9,469 nt of DNA, from NCBI GenBank assembly GCA_900540005.1, contig UQEM01000099.1, positions 1 to 9,469 on the forward strand, read 5' to 3'. This document shows positions 1 to 9,469 of this stretch, in pieces. The position numbers were made by a program, and so were the translations under genes. Origin of the DNA: an uncultured Ruminococcus sp. GTDB taxonomy: Bacteria; Bacillota; Clostridia; Oscillospirales; Ruminococcaceae. How positions within the stretch are numbered: position 1 is the first letter of the stretch; every line of letters starts with the position of its first letter. Under the pieces are notes generated by a model. It searched no databases and had not been told where the DNA came from. It worked only from the letters and a program-made list of their open reading frames with translations.

Positions 1-47
1 GAGATGACGTCGAGTCTCGTGGGCTCGGAGATGTGTATAAGAGACAG
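1..47 (+). other. Illumina Nextera adapter (library artefact) at left contig end
   Basis: Bases 14-47 match the Nextera transposase adapter of the i7 side. They end in the 19-base Tn5 mosaic end AGATGTGTATAAGAGACAG at 29-47. Bases 6-13 (GACGTCGA) are the reverse complement of the index TCGACGTC, and bases 1-5 continue into the P7 primer. This is not genomic sequence and should be trimmed. The mosaic end must not be read as a natural Tn5-type transposon. Confidence 0.98.
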
Positions 48-49
48 CA

Positions 50-1624
50 TACAAAGTGTGCTTTTTGTCAACGGTCAATATCCATGAGGCATTGCAGGAT
101 CTCCGCCGTCTTGAAGATGAAGACCCACAGCTTCATATTCTTTGGAACGAACAAAGCCGAGAGATCCACTTGCAGCTCATGGGAGTGATCCAGCTTGAAG
201 TTCTGACTAATATAATCAAGGACAGATTCGGATATGATGTTTCGTTCGTAAACGGTGCTATTACATATAAGGAAACCATTACAAATACCGTTGAGGGAGT
301 CGGTCACTATGAACCCCTCCGTCACTACGCGGAAGTTCACCTGCTGCTCGAACCTCTGTCTCAGGGCAGCGGTATACAGATCGCCTCGGACTGCGCTGAA
401 GACAAGCTCGACAAAAACTGGCAGAGGCTTATCCTTACCCACCTCGCAGAAAAAACTCACATTGGCGTTCTGACAGGCTCGCCTATCACGGATATTAAGA
501 TCACGCTCGTTTCAGGAAAGGCTCACCTCAAACATACAGAGGGCGGAGATTTCCGACAGGCTACCTACCGCGCTGTGCGGCAAGGTCTCAGAACTGCTGA
601 ATGTCAGCTTCTTGAACCTTTTTACGAATACGAAATTGAACTTCCGACAGAAAATGTCGGCAGAGCCATTTCTGATTTGCAGCAGATGTCGGCTGAATTC
701 GAGCCGCCCGAGACTGTCGGCGAAAACTCAATAATACGAGGCTGTGCTCCTGTCTCTGAGCTTAGCACATATCAGGGTGAACTCATTGGCTACACCAAAG
801 GCAAAGGAAAAATATCCTGCACGCTAAACGGATACCGTCCGTGCCACAATTCAGATGAGGTTATTGAAAATTTCAGTTATGACTGTAACGGCGATCTTGA
901 AAACAGTGCGGACTCGATTTTCTGCTCACACGGTGCAGGGTTCGTGGTCAAATGGAATGAAGTTCCCGAACATATGCATCTGCCGTCTATTCTCGATACC
1001 GATGACAGCGACAATGAAGAGGCAATGCAGCAGAAAGCGCGTAAATTCATAGAAAGAGCCGTTTCGGACGAGGAGCTTATGGAGATTTTTGAGCGAACCT
1101 ACGGAAAACCCAAAACTGCGCCTCACAGAGCCTTTCAAAAGACAAAGGCTGTCAGTTTCGATGATAAAAAAGTAAGACTTCCCGAATATTCCGGCCCTGA
1201 TTATCTCCTCGTTGACGGTTACAATATTATTTTTGCTTGGGACGAACTGAAAAAGATCGCTGAAGAAAATCTTGACGCAGCACGCTCTGAACTCATCAAC
1301 ATGATGTGCAGTTATCAGGGATTTTCAGGTGACGAGCTTATTCTCGTTTTCGATGCCTATCGTGTCAAGGGCAAACACCGTGAAGTTGAGAAATACTACA
1401 ATATCAATATCGTATACACCAAAGAATCCGAAACCGCCGACTCATACATTGAGCGCACCTCTCACGAGCTGTCAAAAAAGCACCGCGTTCGTGTAGCAAC
1501 TTCCGACGGTGCAGAGCAGATGATAATTCTCGGCAACGGCGCTATGAGAATTTCTGCGGCAGAATTCCAAAAGCGATATCAGGCTGCGCAGAAAGCTATC
1601 CGAGAATACATGGACAGGTCATAA
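50..1624 (+). CDS. EF-G/TetM-like translation factor fused to C-terminal NYN/YacP (Rae1-type) nuclease domain, 5' partial
   Basis: Partial protein; the frame is open from the adapter edge, so the GTG at 56 is not the true start. The GTPase domain and domain II are missing. Numbering from that GTG, residues 1-75 resemble the domain III region of TetM/EF-G (a MGVIQLEVL block near 42). Residues 76-195 resemble domain IV (GHYEPLRHYAEVHLLLEPL at 83-101) and about 196-312 domain V. A charged linker follows, then a YacP/NYN domain at 382-522. That domain has LLVDGYN (D387), LVFDAYRVKG (D433), KESETAD (E459, D462) and ATSDGAEQ (D484). The family fold is a PIN-like metal-dependent RNase, and Bacillus subtilis YacP (Rae1) cuts mRNA in the ribosomal A site. 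TetM-like proteins act on the ribosome, so a ribosome-directed nuclease is the inferred role. Databases would probably label it tetracycline-resistance protein, but its domain IV tip loop differs from TetM. The next gene begins 55 bases downstream on the same strand. Confidence 0.88.
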   Translation, partial: YKVCFLSTVNIHEALQDLRRLEDEDPQLHILWNEQSREIHLQLMGVIQLEVLTNIIKDRFGYDVSFVNGAITYKETITNTVEGVGHYEPLRHYAEVHLLLEPLSQGSGIQIASDCAEDKLDKNWQRLILTHLAEKTHIGVLTGSPITDIKITLVSGKAHLKHTEGGDFRQATYRAVRQGLRTAECQLLEPFYEYEIELPTENVGRAISDLQQMSAEFEPPETVGENSIIRGCAPVSELSTYQGELIGYTKGKGKISCTLNGYRPCHNSDEVIENFSYDCNGDLENSADSIFCSHGAGFVVKWNEVPEHMHLPSILDTDDSDNEEAMQQKARKFIERAVSDEELMEIFERTYGKPKTAPHRAFQKTKAVSFDDKKVRLPEYSGPDYLLVDGYNIIFAWDELKKIAEENLDAARSELINMMCSYQGFSGDELILVFDAYRVKGKHREVEKYYNINIVYTKESETADSYIERTSHELSKKHRVRVATSDGAEQMIILGNGAMRISAAEFQKRYQAAQKAIREYMDRS

Positions 1625-3889: not shown

Positions 3890-5029
3890 TCAATTCTTCC
3901 TTTCCCATATATTTTCGCTGAAACTCTCGCTGTTCATTTCGTCAATCCCAAAGAGGAAAAGCGTTTGCTCAAAGTCTGAGGGATCAACATAATCACTGAT
4001 ATCTCCATTCATATCCTCAAGCGAAAGAACAGTTATTAAGCTGTAGTGCTGAATCAGAAACGGTATAAAACAATCCGCATAGCTATCCTTTACAACAAGC
4101 AGACTGCGCTCATTATTGACAGAAGTCTCGATCTCAGTCATCGGCGCATTGTTTCCGAGGTACATATCGTACATATAACCTGATCTGAGTTTTTCGCGGT
4201 CATAAAGCGAACTATTGTAAGGATAGCCGTAACTGTCATATGATATGCACGAAACAACGTCCGCACCATCGGGATACTCATATATATCAAGGATATCCGG
4301 CTTTGTGTCGGTATAGAGAATGCGGCTGTAAAGATTTCCAAGAAACGAATCTGTAACGTGCTCTATGGTATATTTATCGTAAGTAGTCGGGATAAATCCG
4401 AGTTTCTGAATAACTGTTCTGTAAACACAGTATGCCCCGTAGCTTGTCCATTTAGTATCACTTCGGTAATAAATGTAGCTGTCTTTCATCATTTTCAGAA
4501 TATTGTAGGCGTCAATGCGCCTGATATCCGTATCGAGCATATCATAGAAAGCGGATATTCGCTGATTTTCAGGTTCGCTCTGAAGATAAATCGGCAGAAC
4601 ATCGCTGTAAACTCCCGAAGATGTTGGAACAACCGTAATATACACCGTTCCGTCATAGGACGAAGAATAGCGGTTTATCGAATTGGCATAGTCGGGCAGA
4701 GTGTTCCGCAGCGGCTTTTCGGTATCAAGCAGCATTGTGCTGTCGATGTAGACTCCATTGACGAGACTCTCGCTTATCTGCGGCTCATACTTTGACTTGA
4801 ACGAGAGCCAGCTCGAACGTCCGGCAAAGTGGTCGGCAACATATGTTCCAAGTTCATGCGTAAATGTACCGTCACTAATGGTATGTTGATTCGGAAGCTG
4901 TGCATGAGCAAGCTCTATGTTTTCCTGCTGTGAAAAATACTGTTTCGGTCTGAAAAAAGTCAGCAGAGAACATACTGAAATAAACGTCAGCAACAGAACT
5001 GCCGTCAGTACTCCCGTAAGCTTTGACAT
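3890..5029 (-). CDS. DHHW-family (AlgX/AlgJ-like SGNH) exported protein with altered DHHW motif
   Basis: A 379-residue protein with an N-terminal signal anchor (about residues 2-26), then an extracellular domain. The family layout is visible: YYRSD-T-K-W-TSYGAY at 187-200 (normally D-H-H-W-T..GAY) and VVKDSYADCFIPFLIQHYS at 312-330, carrying the nucleophile-like S316. In AlgX/AlgJ relatives the Asp and His of the first block and the Ser of the second form a triad for O-acetylation of extracellular polysaccharide. Here D191 and S316 are kept but T192-K193 replace both histidines. The gene lies 17 bases after the MBOAT gene, its usual partner. ATG 5029 is chosen over GTG 5035 because the GGGGAG at 5037-5042 has 7 bases of spacing to the ATG and almost none to the GTG. 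It could be inactive, structural or substrate-binding. Confidence 0.8.
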   Translation of the reverse strand: MSKLTGVLTAVLLLTFISVCSLLTFFRPKQYFSQQENIELAHAQLPNQHTISDGTFTHELGTYVADHFAGRSSWLSFKSKYEPQISESLVNGVYIDSTMLLDTEKPLRNTLPDYANSINRYSSSYDGTVYITVVPTSSGVYSDVLPIYLQSEPENQRISAFYDMLDTDIRRIDAYNILKMMKDSYIYYRSDTKWTSYGAYCVYRTVIQKLGFIPTTYDKYTIEHVTDSFLGNLYSRILYTDTKPDILDIYEYPDGADVVSCISYDSYGYPYNSSLYDREKLRSGYMYDMYLGNNAPMTEIETSVNNERSLLVVKDSYADCFIPFLIQHYSLITVLSLEDMNGDISDYVDPSDFEQTLFLFGIDEMNSESFSENIWERKN

Positions 5030-5046
5030 ACACACTCTCCCCTTTC

Positions 5047-6426
5047 TTATAATCTTATCAGAATCATGTCGGAACTTCCGCTGTAAGAGATAAATGCCGT
5101 GCAGAGCATAAGAAGTACAAGCATGAATACCGGTGTAATAATATCTATCACACTGCGCATTCCTGTTTTTTCAGCACGGACTATCATATTGCGGAAAAGG
5201 CTTGTTGAGGCGTAAACGGCTGCAAGGATAAGCACGATATAGGACTTGAGAAGATAGAACGACAGCTCATCTACAAGAATTCCGCTGCGCCCGAACATAG
5301 TGAGCAGGTATTCAAACGAATCTGCAAAACCGTCATTTAAAAAGAACACTCCGCCTATAACTGCAAAGATCACCGTGTAAAATATTCCCGTAAAACCGTG
5401 TGATTTTTTCTGAATGAACCTATTTTCAAACAGGATCGCCGCCGCGCTTATTACTCCCCAGACAAGACCTTTAAGGTCAAACTTATACCAAAGTCCGATC
5501 ATTATCCATGCCAATGCAAAAATCACTCTTTTGTGGAATTTATCCTTTCTCAGCGAAGCAAGTGGCTTGAAAAAGTATCTCCTGAACCACAGCGTAAGCT
5601 GTATATTCCAGTTAGAGGCAAATGCTCGTACTTTGGTCGAAAACAGCGGATAATTAAGGCTTGGCGGAAGTTTTATTCCAAAACAGCGGCTTATTCCGAC
5701 TCCCATATCCGCAAATCCCGAAAAAGTAAAGTACAGACAGAGGATATAGGCGATAACTCCGAGCCATGCCGTCATGGCAGACATATGTCCGATATCAGTA
5801 CTCTTTACCGCGGTATAGAGCATATAAAGTATATCAGCGGCAACAACTTTTTTTACCAGTCCCTTGATGAAAATACTGAGTCCCATGCCAATTGAGGCAA
5901 GTCCTGCCTTTCGGTTTGCAACAAGCTTGCCGAAAGAGTCATACCGCACGATAGGTCCCATAACAAGGCGCGGAAAATAAGTGATATACAAGGCAAACCG
6001 CGCAAAACTTCCTGCGGATCTCACTCTGCCGATATACACGTCCGAGAGAGTTCCTATCGCTGAAAGGGTAAAGAAAGAGATCCCTATCGGGAAAAATCCG
6101 TATGGCATACCGAGCATATCTGCGAATTTCAGAGAAAATTCAGACCTGAAACCAAACATCACGGATATATCCGCTAACACACAGACTGCAAACGTAACCG
6201 TAGCCGGTTTGCCTTTTGGGCGAAGCTTTTGTATAAGCAGGCAACCTGCATAGTTCATTGCAGCATATATCGCCATAAAGATTAAATAAGATGTTCCCCA
6301 TGACACACAGTAAACAAGACTTATAAAGAGAAGCGCATACTCGCGAAATTTATCAGGACACAAATAATAAACAAGAAGCGACAGCGGCAGAAAGGCGTAT
6401 ATAAATATCAGAGAGCTGTAGATCAT
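5047..6426 (-). CDS. MBOAT-family membrane protein (AlgI/DltB/PatA-like) lacking both signature histidines
   Basis: A 459-residue polytopic protein of normal length for bacterial MBOATs. Recognisable blocks in order are FFPIGISFFTL (111-121), SDVYIG (128-133), YFPRLVMGPIVRY (150-162), LYFTFSGFADMGVGISRCFG (231-250), LNYPLFS (257-263), NWNIQLTLWFRRYFFKPL (272-289) and WIMIGLWYKFDLKGLVWG (307-324). Family members move acyl groups across the membrane to cell-wall or exopolysaccharide acceptors. The usual RRWHISL and GLWHG blocks carry conserved histidines (H289 and H336 in DltB; H322 in AlgI is the latter). Here these are N274 (AAT, 5605-5607) and Y314 (TAT, 5485-5487). The neighbouring DHHW gene is the expected extracellular partner. 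The start overlaps the upstream stop as ATGA (6423-6426), with AAGGAG about 8 bases upstream. Family is clear; catalytic activity is doubtful. Confidence 0.88.
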   Translation of the reverse strand: MIYSSLIFIYAFLPLSLLVYYLCPDKFREYALLFISLVYCVSWGTSYLIFMAIYAAMNYAGCLLIQKLRPKGKPATVTFAVCVLADISVMFGFRSEFSLKFADMLGMPYGFFPIGISFFTLSAIGTLSDVYIGRVRSAGSFARFALYITYFPRLVMGPIVRYDSFGKLVANRKAGLASIGMGLSIFIKGLVKKVVAADILYMLYTAVKSTDIGHMSAMTAWLGVIAYILCLYFTFSGFADMGVGISRCFGIKLPPSLNYPLFSTKVRAFASNWNIQLTLWFRRYFFKPLASLRKDKFHKRVIFALAWIMIGLWYKFDLKGLVWGVISAAAILFENRFIQKKSHGFTGIFYTVIFAVIGGVFFLNDGFADSFEYLLTMFGRSGILVDELSFYLLKSYIVLILAAVYASTSLFRNMIVRAEKTGMRSVIDIITPVFMLVLLMLCTAFISYSGSSDMILIRL

Positions 6427-7016
6427 TCCCCGTTCTCCTTAATGCTCAGCACCATTGTTTCCAGTTCTTTGCGGTCTGTCATCGTATTCAGCACCTCAAC
6501 AAGCGATGCTGTTGAAAGCAGTTCCGGCAGTCCGAGTTTTTTTTGCAATCTGTGCCTTAACTCGCTGCTGTTTTTGCCGCCGCTGAGTCCGAGTTCAAAG
6601 AGCGTGAGTTTGGTTATTCCGCCTGATGAGATGTTTTCGGAAGGAGTTATCCCTGACTTTTCAAATGCGGCAAGCAGGATCTCCGGTTTTATGCCCTCAA
6701 CCCCGAGTTTTCCCTCCGCAGAAGGTTTTTCCTTGCGCTTTTCTTTACCGAAAATATCGGGAATGTATACATTTGTTATCTTGCCATTGCTTACCGCTCC
6801 CTTGATGTAGCCGCGAATCTTCCTGCCCGCGCTGTCTGAGTCAGTAAGGATTATTATTCCGGTTTTTTCGGCATAATAGCGTATAAGTGCAAGTTTTTCG
6901 GTATCTTTGAATATTCCGAAACCGTTAGTTACGATTATGACCGCGTCAACTATTGAGGCAAGCTTTATTTTATCGTATTTTCCTTCAACTATTATTGCCT
7001 GGTCTATCTTTATCAT
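6423..7016 (-). CDS. Toprim-domain protein, RNase M5 (RnmV)-like with DUF4093-type C-terminus
   Basis: A 197-residue protein. The N-terminal 90 residues are a Toprim domain: IIVEGKYDKIKL (E11) and ILTDSDSAGRKIRGYI (D59, D61), the acidic residues that bind metal in this fold. Between them, VTNGFGIFKD matches the TNG segment of RNase M5, which matures 5S rRNA precursors in Firmicutes. The C-terminal half (about 125-197: ISSGGITKLTLFELGLSGG, LRHRLQKKLGLPELLS) looks like the domain found in clostridial M5-like proteins. The basic linker KEKRKEKP (91-98) may contact RNA. Toprim proteins also include primases and recombination proteins, but the short length and layout favour M5. The ATG at 7016 has GGAGG 5 bases upstream. 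Gap to holA is 11 bases. Confidence 0.75.
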   Translation of the reverse strand: MIKIDQAIIVEGKYDKIKLASIVDAVIIVTNGFGIFKDTEKLALIRYYAEKTGIIILTDSDSAGRKIRGYIKGAVSNGKITNVYIPDIFGKEKRKEKPSAEGKLGVEGIKPEILLAAFEKSGITPSENISSGGITKLTLFELGLSGGKNSSELRHRLQKKLGLPELLSTASLVEVLNTMTDRKELETMVLSIKENGE

Positions 7017-7027
7017 TGAGACCTCCG

Positions 7028-8110
7028 CTAATTCTTCGTAATGAGCATTTGTGTTACTGCCTGCTCAAGTACAGTTTTTTCGTCAGCGCCGGTTGAATTG
7101 AGCTTTACGTTGGTATCGCGCAGTATTTTTATACAAGCACGCAGTCTACCTACGCTCATGCGCGAACTGTCGCGAAAAGCATTCTTCACCTTAAAGCTCC
7201 ACGCGTATGAGAAGTCTTTCTCAACGTCTGTCTGCGAATGTCCGCTTGACCGCGCGCAGGCTGCACGATACATATCAAGAAATGAATTCGTGATAGCCGC
7301 AAGAACTGCTCCACGATTATCCTTATCGGACATCAGCTCATCAAGAGCCTCGAATGCCGCACTTTTGTTCATTGCCGCAACCGCGTCCGCAAGCTTGAAT
7401 ATATCCACGTCACTGTTAGCGTGAACCATTTCGTGTATCATCTCTGCGGTTACTTCTCTGCCATTTGCATAAGCGCACAGCTTATCCACTTCATTATTGA
7501 TAGTCAGCGTATCATTAAGGCACATATCCGCCAGAAGCCTTGCGTTGTTAAGCGATATCTCTGCTCCCCTCGCGGAAATTCGTGCAGCTATATCCTTTGC
7601 AAGTTCCTGCGGAGGCTTTACCGCACATTGAACCGATTCGCCGTTTTTTGCCGCAAGGTCAGATAATTTCTTATTCTTATCCTTTATAATGGTCGCGCGA
7701 GTCTTATAGTCAACTCGCACAGGAACATCAAATCCCGTTACGTTGAAAATAACAATGGTGTGAGAGGGGATCTCTTTGAGGATCTCAAACAGCTTTTTAT
7801 TGACGTTTTCGGCGCTTTGACCGCGCATATCTTCAAATGGTCTCTCGCAATTATAGTCATTGATGAGAATACAGTTGTAGTCCGTCATCATAGGCATAAT
7901 ACCTATCATATCGTAAAGCTGAGAAAGGTCGAGTTTCTTGCCGTCCAGACGAGTTAGACCAAAGTCCTCATTATCGCCGACTGCCGCCTTTATTATCAGC
8001 TTTGTGAGCTGTTCCACTTCCGGCACGTTGTTTCCGTATATGTAGTAAAGGTTCTTGAGGTCGCCTTTTTTTACCGCGGCTTTTATTGCTTTTACATCAG
8101 ATATTGGCAT
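7028..8110 (-). CDS. holA: DNA polymerase III subunit delta
   Basis: A 360-residue protein of the usual length for HolA, the delta subunit that opens the beta sliding clamp within the clamp-loader complex. The N-terminal pattern KGDLKNLYYIYGNNVPEVEQL is the AAA+-like entry of delta, which normally lacks a working Walker A. The middle segment VDIFKLADAVAAMNKSAAFEALDELM and the C-terminal helical collar (about 270-360) fit the family. Its position directly after comEC is a common Firmicute arrangement and supports the call. The start overlaps the comEC stop by one base (TGATG), with AAGGAG about 7 bases upstream, so translation is probably coupled. Confidence 0.92.
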   Translation of the reverse strand: MPISDVKAIKAAVKKGDLKNLYYIYGNNVPEVEQLTKLIIKAAVGDNEDFGLTRLDGKKLDLSQLYDMIGIMPMMTDYNCILINDYNCERPFEDMRGQSAENVNKKLFEILKEIPSHTIVIFNVTGFDVPVRVDYKTRATIIKDKNKKLSDLAAKNGESVQCAVKPPQELAKDIAARISARGAEISLNNARLLADMCLNDTLTINNEVDKLCAYANGREVTAEMIHEMVHANSDVDIFKLADAVAAMNKSAAFEALDELMSDKDNRGAVLAAITNSFLDMYRAACARSSGHSQTDVEKDFSYAWSFKVKNAFRDSSRMSVGRLRACIKILRDTNVKLNSTGADEKTVLEQAVTQMLITKN

Positions 8111-9420
8111 CAGAGTCTCCTTATTTTATAATCGCCGTTTTCAGCAAGAATTATCTCAAAATTGTTCACTCCGCGCTCACAGCGGATATCTGTATAAATA
8201 ACGCTGTCGCTCTCGGAAAGTTCGCTGTTTTTCGGAATATTGCCGTAAAGAACTGTTACTCCGTCATCAGTCATGATCTCGCTTTTAATTGGAGCAAATA
8301 CCACGGTTTGTCCTCTGCAAGTCAGCTTGACCGCATGGTCAGCGTATTCTACAATGCAGTCGCCGTGCTCTATCGTGAAACTGCTATCCCCTACCGCTCG
8401 GACTTTTTTCTCACCTGCTGTCAGTACATCGGTACACAGTATCCACTCATCTGCGCGTTCGATATCCTCAAAGTAGGCTGAATACTGTGAGTGAACATTT
8501 TCTGTCAGTATAACATCTGAAACGTGATCTTCTCCGTTATCCTTCAGATATTTTCTCACATAATCAGAATTTCTGTAATTTCCGCTGAGATCAATAACGT
8601 CAGTATTTCCGCGATATGATACCACAATTGCCATATCTGAACCTCTGCCGACTACAGCCGCAATACAGTATCTGCTGCGGATATTTCTGCGAACTCCCGA
8701 ACTTATAAGCGAAACTGAACAAGCCGCTGCACACGCTATGCAGACCGCGGTTCGGCTTCTAATCATAAAATATACGATAAGCACAATGAGTGCTGCACCA
8801 AAAACAATTGTTATTACTTCTTTTCCGGGCGATGAAAGGTATATAAAACGCAAACGCGAAAGTTTATCCGCTATATGTAGCACAAGCTTTACCGTCATTC
8901 CCGCAAATTCTATTACGGGAATAAGTCCACCTGACAAAACGTAAGCTATCCCAAGCAGCATAGCAAAAGTACATATTGGAATCATAACTATATTGCTAAT
9001 GGGAGATATCAGTGAAATTTCGCCGAAATACAGCAGACTGAACGGAAGAACCGAAAGCGTTGTGCATATCATTACCGCAATACTGCGCAGAAATCTGTAC
9101 GCTGCATTGCTGCTTGGAATGTTCTTTACCATAAACGGGCCAAATACGCCGATCCCGAAAGTACCCGAAAGAGACAGCATGAATCCGCTGCTGAAAATCG
9201 CGTATGGATTTACAAGGCAAATTATCAGTGCCGCGGCAGCAAGTGAATTCAGCGTGTCATTCTGCCTGCGAAAAAGCTTCGCAGAGCAAATAAAATCCAT
9301 CATTATAACGGCTCGTATCGCTGATATCGGTGAATTTGCCATGAGTACCAGCATTGCCATTAAAACATTTGTCAGCCCGAACGACACATATTTATTTATC
9401 CGCAAGAGGCTGAAAACAGC
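8110..9420 (-). CDS. comEC: ComEC/Rec2-family DNA uptake channel, N-terminus missing, C-terminal domain degenerate
   Basis: 436 residues remain; the frame runs into the adapter at 9421, and an apparent MYKRQ start is adapter-encoded. Residues 1-220 hold the membrane "competence" domain: SPISAIRAVIMM (30-41), NDTLNSLAAAALIICLVNPYAIFSSGFMLSLSGTFGIGV blocks (54-92), then hydrophobic segments up to about 220. ComEC forms the channel through which single-stranded DNA enters during transformation. The last 190 residues are in the place of the metallo-beta-lactamase domain. However, DVGQGD is replaced by VVGRGSD (256-262), and the HxHxDH metal motif by LTENVHSQ (305-312). The missing upstream part would hold the OB-fold and first membrane segments. 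It is the first visible gene of the minus-strand operon; the promoter is outside the contig. Confidence 0.88.
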   Translation of the reverse strand, partial: AVFSLLRINKYVSFGLTNVLMAMLVLMANSPISAIRAVIMMDFICSAKLFRRQNDTLNSLAAAALIICLVNPYAIFSSGFMLSLSGTFGIGVFGPFMVKNIPSSNAAYRFLRSIAVMICTTLSVLPFSLLYFGEISLISPISNIVMIPICTFAMLLGIAYVLSGGLIPVIEFAGMTVKLVLHIADKLSRLRFIYLSSPGKEVITIVFGAALIVLIVYFMIRSRTAVCIACAAACSVSLISSGVRRNIRSRYCIAAVVGRGSDMAIVVSYRGNTDVIDLSGNYRNSDYVRKYLKDNGEDHVSDVILTENVHSQYSAYFEDIERADEWILCTDVLTAGEKKVRAVGDSSFTIEHGDCIVEYADHAVKLTCRGQTVVFAPIKSEIMTDDGVTVLYGNIPKNSELSESDSVIYTDIRCERGVNNFEIILAENGDYKIRRL

Positions 9421-9469
9421 CTGTCTCTTATACACATCTCCGAGCCCACGAGACTCGACGTCATCTCGT
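9421..9469 (-). other. Illumina Nextera adapter (library artefact) at right contig end
   Basis: Bases 9421-9454 are the reverse complement of the same Nextera adapter found at 14-47. They are followed by the index TCGACGTC (9455-9462) and the start of the P7 sequence (9463-9469). Its first 15 bases, read on the minus strand, encode Met/Val-Tyr-Lys-Arg-Gln and create a false N-terminus for comEC. Trim at 9420. Confidence 0.98.

Follow-up and report, generated by a model that had tools for sequence, protein, structure and literature searches.

A translational GTPase fused to a Rae1-type nuclease domain, a possible replacement for free Rae1 in Clostridia

Introduction

A contig from an uncultured Ruminococcus species begins with the 3' part of a gene in which EF-G-like domains are followed, in the same reading frame, by a nuclease domain of the YacP/Rae1 type. 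The locus raises the question of whether this is one real protein and, if so, whether it is a resistance protein, a nuclease kept near ribosomes, or a factor that delivers its own nuclease to the ribosome. Rae1 is described as an endoribonuclease of the ribosomal A site (PMC6613710). The architecture has been known since 2015, when Atkinson and co-workers listed "Tet plus YacP-like NYN" proteins in ten clostridial species (PMC4342817). In that account the NYN is treated as an acquired domain, possibly conferring RNase-based resistance, and the proteins are filed under Tet. A search of the open-licence literature found no later study of the fusion.

The gene remnant and its full-length relatives

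The fusion frame is open from base 50 of the window (the whole 9,469-nucleotide stretch analysed) and ends with a TAA stop codon at 1622-1624. Bases 14-47 contain a 34-base match to a sequencing adapter, which by its letters we take to be the one named Nextera, and its reverse complement lies at the opposite end of the window. The fusion gene therefore stops at a library or assembly end, and the 5' part of a gene of ~854 codons is cut off by the contig end. A GTG at base 56 was rejected as the start codon because the relatives P0004 and P0005 extend ~331 residues further upstream. Window residues are numbered with base 53 as the start of codon 1, and Pfam was run on the translation of bases 53-1621. 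The features of the locus are as follows.

14..47, + strand, sequencing adapter, presumably of Nextera type, at the contig end; the 5' part of the gene is lost here
50..1624, + strand, 3' part of the GTPase-NYN fusion gene (523 codons plus stop), equivalent to P0005 residues 332-854
98..244, + strand, EF-G domain III, partial (PF14492)
257..598, + strand, EF-G domain IV (PF03764)
515..556, + strand, tip of domain IV, GKAHLKHTEGGDFR; Tet(O) and Tet(W) have YYSPVSTPADFR there
605..853, + strand, EF-G domain V (PF00679)
842..979, + strand, C-terminal Cys/His module (C595, C622, H624, and H640 of P0005), common with unfused sister proteins
980..1198, + strand, linker, mostly variable and in part predicted to be disordered
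1067..1105, + strand, short conserved helix within the linker, DEELMEIFERTYG
1199..1621, + strand, NYN_YacP (Rae1-type) domain (PF05991)
1214, 1352, 1439, and 1505, + strand, first bases of the four acidic codons of the NYN domain

All four domains of the remnant scored above the Pfam cut-offs: EFG_III (window residues 16-64, E = 1.2e-7), EFG_IV (69-182, E = 5e-19), EFG_C (185-267, E = 1.8e-18), and NYN_YacP (385-520, E = 2.9e-49, 167.7 bits against a cut-off of 24.6). The preliminary description of this DNA had proposed that a translational GTPase and a YacP/Rae1 domain, the latter intact, form one chain, and had looked to related genomes for the full-length gene. That gene is found in P0004 (874 aa) and P0005 (854 aa), which are 99% identical over the part in the window and carry a complete GTPase domain upstream. 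Pfam assigns GTP_EFTU to residues 4-222 of P0005, EFG_III to 327-395, EFG_IV to 400-513, EFG_C to 516-598, and NYN_YacP to 716-851, and EF-G-like domains G to V are present in P0005 and in two more fusions. Among named relatives, those from Ruminococcus flavefaciens are nearest (~74% identity); these proteins are annotated as "translation factor GTPase family protein". Both the Pfam assignments and the relatives establish a real, conserved fusion. The GTPase motifs AHVD.GK, DTPGH, and NK.D, which belong to the part absent from the window itself, are kept in 79-80 of 80 fused rows.

Two further elements lie between domain V and the nuclease. In the Cys/His module, C595 and C622 are present in 80/80 fused rows, H640 in 79/80, and H624 in 78/80; its residues suggest a possible metal site. 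The linker, of ~73 residues, is variable apart from the short helix at approximately 670-682. An AlphaFold model (pLDDT 79.3, pTM 0.56) and a Foldseek search give residues 1-619 an EF-G fold. Residues 681-707 have pLDDT below 50, and with that linker value and pTM the position of the NYN domain relative to the GTPase is predicted without confidence.

Other genes in the window

Downstream on the + strand, between 1681 and 2476, a 44-codon start resembling a signal peptide (ATG at 1681, stop at about 1813) is followed in a different frame by an open reading frame (1916-2476) with LRR_5 and dockerin matches. From its sequence, the region resembles a gene of cellulosome type that a change of frame has disrupted. 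On the - strand, a DHHW/AlgX-like protein adjoins a DltB-like MBOAT acyltransferase (3890-6426), likely, by sequence, a surface-polymer acylation pair. An RNase M5-like gene (84.2 bits, under the NCBI cut-off of 110.65), holA (DNA polymerase III delta), and a ComEC-like gene stand in a row at 6423-9468, also on the - strand.

Distribution of the fusion

How often the fusion occurs was examined in 243 genomes from the class of R. flavefaciens Y1, which are drafts of unstated completeness. The YacP domain exceeded the Pfam cut-off in 161 of them, and the length of the frame around it was bimodal: 160-216 aa in 72 genomes, where YacP is free, and 618-1190 aa in 84, where it is fused. Of the five frames of intermediate length (295-451 aa), three are located at a contig start according to their coordinates, and the other two are fusions that a frameshift interrupts. 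The fused total is thus 89/161, made up of 84 single-frame fusions and 5 cut by a contig end or frameshift. In one single-frame fusion, that of G078, only the first half of the YacP domain is present.

These numbers bear on the simplest alternative, that two genes were joined at the linker by assembly error or frameshift. Adapter at both contig ends and the 5 interrupted or cut cases among 89 would be in keeping with such an error; against it, a single open frame crosses the linker in 84 independent assemblies, and 121 fused segments in the fetched loci have linkers of 65-115 residues as measured between the ends of the domain matches. The preliminary description had named a join or frameshift at the linker as the outcome that would undo its reading. 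One-frame fusions recur across the group instead, and the probability of an artefact is negligible.

No genome among the 161 YacP-bearing clostridial genomes has both a fused and a free YacP, an exclusion that, through shared descent, represents few independent changes (the labels switch 2-3 times on the trees) and not 161. A separate yacP, whose absence the preliminary description had proposed looking for, is missing wherever the fusion is present. Second YacP matches in three genomes cover 47 residues each and fall below the Pfam cut-off. A second match of equal score in R. flavefaciens FD-1 (G002), a 360-aa frame on the 3-kb contig C97, may be an assembly duplicate of the 3' end of the fusion. 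In a phylum-wide sample of 299 genomes, 155 had a YacP match, 154 of them over the cut-off; the matches listed include 18 fused frames, a count that leaves out four frames of 249-308 aa, and six of the 18 are common to the class sample. None of the phylum-sample genomes listed has a fused and a free copy together. Since the fusion and free Rae1 never occur together in the 161 genomes, the fusion likely took over the mRNA-cutting job of Rae1.

One fused member on a long branch (L185, from G197) has one in-frame stop between the GTPase domain, in a 288-aa frame, and the remainder, in a 618-aa frame.

Genomic context

The free yacP gene lies within 60 bases of rlmB in 16/20 genomes. The exceptions are 3 kb (G124) or 13 kb (G055) from rlmB or on another contig (G216 and G232). 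The fused gene was near rlmB in 0/20 genomes, 15 of which have the two genes on different contigs, and rlmB itself was retained in 20/20 fused genomes checked. This locus bears on a reading in which the GTPase would dock on subunits that are immature or inactive, where the NYN domain would trim or degrade rRNA. Such a role in rRNA or ribosome-precursor processing is suggested by the proximity of free yacP to rlmB, a 23S methyltransferase gene, by the placing of yacO and rae1 in one genetic pathway (PMC6613710), and by an earlier proposal, cited in PMC4342817, that NYN/YacP proteins act in rRNA/tRNA maturation. The B. subtilis Rae1 targets described in the available text of PMC10632193 and PMC11780869 are, however, mRNAs, and the fused gene no longer resides beside rlmB. 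We regard rRNA processing as improbable.

No neighbouring gene family was common to more than 12 of 91 loci (L001-L080 and L171-L181). Such sharing as there is occurs mostly among close Ruminococcus relatives, and so no partner or stress pathway is named. An origin in mobile elements was considered and rejected. Of 1275 matching plasmid records only 2 span 80% or more of the query, and these are large replicons typed as non-mobilizable; of 112 matching phage records only 2 do so, both unannotated faecal scaffolds. Given this scarcity, we do not treat the fusion as a mobile resistance gene. A faecal "Bacteriophage sp." scaffold (L184, MT835563.1), likewise unannotated, carries a full fusion of 53% identity and may be bacterial DNA.

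The nuclease domain and its tail

The NYN domain matches B. subtilis YacP (PDB 5mq9) with E = 5.5e-28. Its four acidic residues, given in the preliminary description as D387, D433, D462, and D484, are D388, D434, D463, and D485 in our numbering and D719, D765, D794, and D816 in P0005. They are intact in the window and kept in 80, 80, 80, and 79 of 80 fused relatives. In the wider set of 113 fused domains, which is the 121 fused segments minus 8 duplicate loci, the figures are 113, 113, 113, and 112, and all four are kept in 30/30 free YacPs. Fused homologues regularly lacking these residues, which the preliminary description had set against its own reading, are thus not what the family contains.

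The end of the domain differs from that of Rae1. Beyond the last motif, all 30 free YacPs continue for 43-48 residues and end in a basic, LEKxRR-like tail. In fused domains the corresponding stretch is 15-36 residues long in 76/113 and 38-57 in 37/113. The NYN domain in the window has 18 and lacks the C-terminal Arg tail that contains R165 and R166 of Rae1. The position of R165 is Arg in 27/30 free YacPs and in 7/113 fused domains (77 gaps), and that of R166 is R/K in 26/30 and 17/113, respectively (78 gaps). Loss of the tail is clear in fusions of the window's type. It is not universal: Lachnospiraceae-type fusions retain a tail as long as that of free YacP, although most of them lack the Arg motif. 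In B. subtilis, R166P is among the rae1 suppressor mutations read as loss-of-function in PMC6613710, an effect that may be a mere helix break. A module no longer needing its own tail would fit delivery by the GTPase.

The fusion thus shares with B. subtilis Rae1 (PDB 5mq8 and 5mq9) the NYN fold, as assigned by sequence, and the acidic residues. Unlike Rae1, a free protein of ~170 aa encoded beside rlmB and ending in a C-terminal Arg tail, the nuclease here is the C-terminal domain of a GTPase, is encoded away from rlmB and, in the window's type, has no such tail.

Relation of the GTPase to the Tet proteins

A part in resistance to tetracycline or another drug, through ribosome protection combined with RNase activity, was suggested in 2015. 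Some members are annotated by NCBI as TetM/TetW/TetO/TetS family, and in a sequence-profile search of the PDB the closest solved structures were TetO (316.9 bits) and TetM (309.9), ahead of the best EF-G (300.7). TetM and TetO are absent from the 50 Foldseek rows listed, an absence that carries no weight.

Other observations stand against membership. The NCBIfam tet_protect equivalog, with a cut-off of 775 bits, gave 373.6-431.8 bits for 6/6 members (three fused and three unfused), whereas a Tet(O) control scored 849.3. The YSPVST loop of domain IV has a role in displacing tetracycline. It is present in Tet(O) and Tet(W), whose tip reads YYSPVSTPADFR, and in two further rows, and is replaced in this family: the tip is of HLKHTEGGDFR type (GKAHLKHTEGGDFR-like) in 80/80 fused rows and HT.GGDFR-like in the unfused ones. 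The members branch outside a seven-row Tet-like sample with supports of 84 and 91, which are not starred. Two fused genomes have, in addition, separate matches of Tet length (643-644 aa; putative, by length). In domain order the family is the same as Tet(O), Tet(M), and Tet(W), at ~29-30% identity. It differs from them in the tip loop, the C-terminal end, the NCBI cut-off, and tree position, and the Tet(O) control has no NYN domain. From these comparisons we read the GTPase as a sister group of the Tet proteins and not a member. The cut-off and the tip loop, and more tentatively the tree, bear out the view of the preliminary description that the system is not simple antibiotic resistance, a role that we consider very unlikely.

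With EF-G and EF-G2 paralogues, including the ribosome-bound Bacteroides EF-G2 (PDB 8dmf), the protein has in common the fold of residues 1-619 and, by alignment with EF-G, the His at the tip position of the GSYH motif. It is unlike them in sequence (18-26% identity in Foldseek) and in its tip, and it has in addition the Cys/His end, the linker, and the nuclease.

Unfused sisters of the GTPase

Unfused members of the GTPase family (653-729 aa, E <= 1.1e-71) were found in 13/80 genomes tested: 10 of the 65 listed genomes with free YacP, and 3 of 15 tested among the 82 without YacP. The remaining genomes tested had EF-G-like matches only (best E >= 1.2e-23). In 40/40 fused genomes tested, the fusion itself is the sole close relative of the GTPase (E <= 6.1e-71), the next-best match having E >= 5.2e-20. 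At the Cys/His module 13 of 15 unfused rows end in His-Cys and two, L093 of G232 and L176 of G216, in His-Thr.

In a quick maximum-likelihood tree of the GTPase, 14/15 unfused rows group together (support 87) beside 52 fused rows. The remaining one, a Lactobacillus salivarius plasmid member, lies on a long branch among the fused rows. The NYN tree places two free domains, those of G232 and G216, in the group formed by the fused ones. A single clade of fused rows had AU p values of 0.795 (GTPase) and 0.326 (NYN); these values do not reject a single origin of the fusion, but they fall short of demonstrating it. G216 and G232 have free YacPs that branch with the fused ones and lie away from rlmB, and unfused GTPases without the final Cys. 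They may descend from the stage immediately preceding fusion, or from a split that came later.

The gene of the L. salivarius member (L179, on pMP118 of strain UCC118) stands beside rpsN (S14) and a gene of putative metal homeostasis function, and is divergent from them. Taken with the protein's Cys/His end, these neighbours hint at a connection with zinc. The gene is not identified in the available text of the literature on L. salivarius, and no phenotype for it was found there.

The presence of unfused sisters in 3 of 15 genomes without YacP indicates that the GTPase part also has some function without the nuclease. This keeps alive the explanation that the GTPase has its own job, as an alternative elongation, recycling, or rescue factor in the manner of EF-G paralogues, and that fusion merely keeps Rae1 near ribosomes without gating its activity. 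The sisters match the fusions in domain IV tip and Cys/His end, the linker is long, with much of it variable or disordered, and the best Foldseek matches are EF-G chains, ribosome-bound Bacteroides EF-G2 among them. Tethering of this kind leaves unexplained the absence of free YacP in 89/89 fused genomes and the conserved short helix of the linker, both of which weigh weakly either way. We consider it unlikely, if a serious competitor.

Discussion

Our preferred reading, held with middling confidence, is that one chain composed of an EF-G/ribosomal-protection-like GTPase and an intact Rae1-type NYN domain has replaced free Rae1 as a ribosome-directed mRNA endonuclease. Judged from sequence, the fusion is likely to be a self-delivering enzyme of this kind, and likely to depend on GTP. 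The GTPase part would bind the factor site of ribosomes with an open A site, for example stalled ones, and would bring the nuclease to the ribosome in place of the lost tail. Domain IV would withdraw once GTP is hydrolysed, and the tethered NYN domain could then cut the mRNA at or near the A site, beginning the decay of that mRNA. The order of probing, hydrolysis, withdrawal, and cutting, with the GTPase first and the nuclease second, is proposed because domain IV of the EF-G type and Rae1 would need the same A site. The two would clash there, and a hand-over separated in time would be needed. The ~73-residue linker could bridge domain V and the A site, and geometry therefore leaves the choice between mechanisms undecided.

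More tentatively, we suggest that in the Oscillospiraceae/Lachnospiraceae relatives free Rae1 may have been swapped once for a GTP-timed, self-delivering factor and its old docking tail discarded.

Compared with the proteins of the same architecture described by Atkinson et al., the present analysis adds the extent of the fusion (89/161), the exclusion of free YacP, and the unfused sister group. As to their filing under Tet, members fall below the Tet cut-off and outside the Tet-like sample, and the loss of the tail is a further addition. In the available text of published descriptions we found no account of how widespread the fusion is, of its replacement of Rae1, of the case against placing it in Tet, of the split sister group, or of the tail loss.

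If the preferred reading is true, the TetM/TetW/TetO/TetS labels that members carry in databases would mislead counts of the gut resistome. The fusion would also make it possible to test directly how the cutting of mRNA can be timed by a translation GTPase. Finally, mRNA surveillance of the Rae1 type would, in many gut Clostridia, be the work of one GTPase-nuclease chain and not of a free nuclease.
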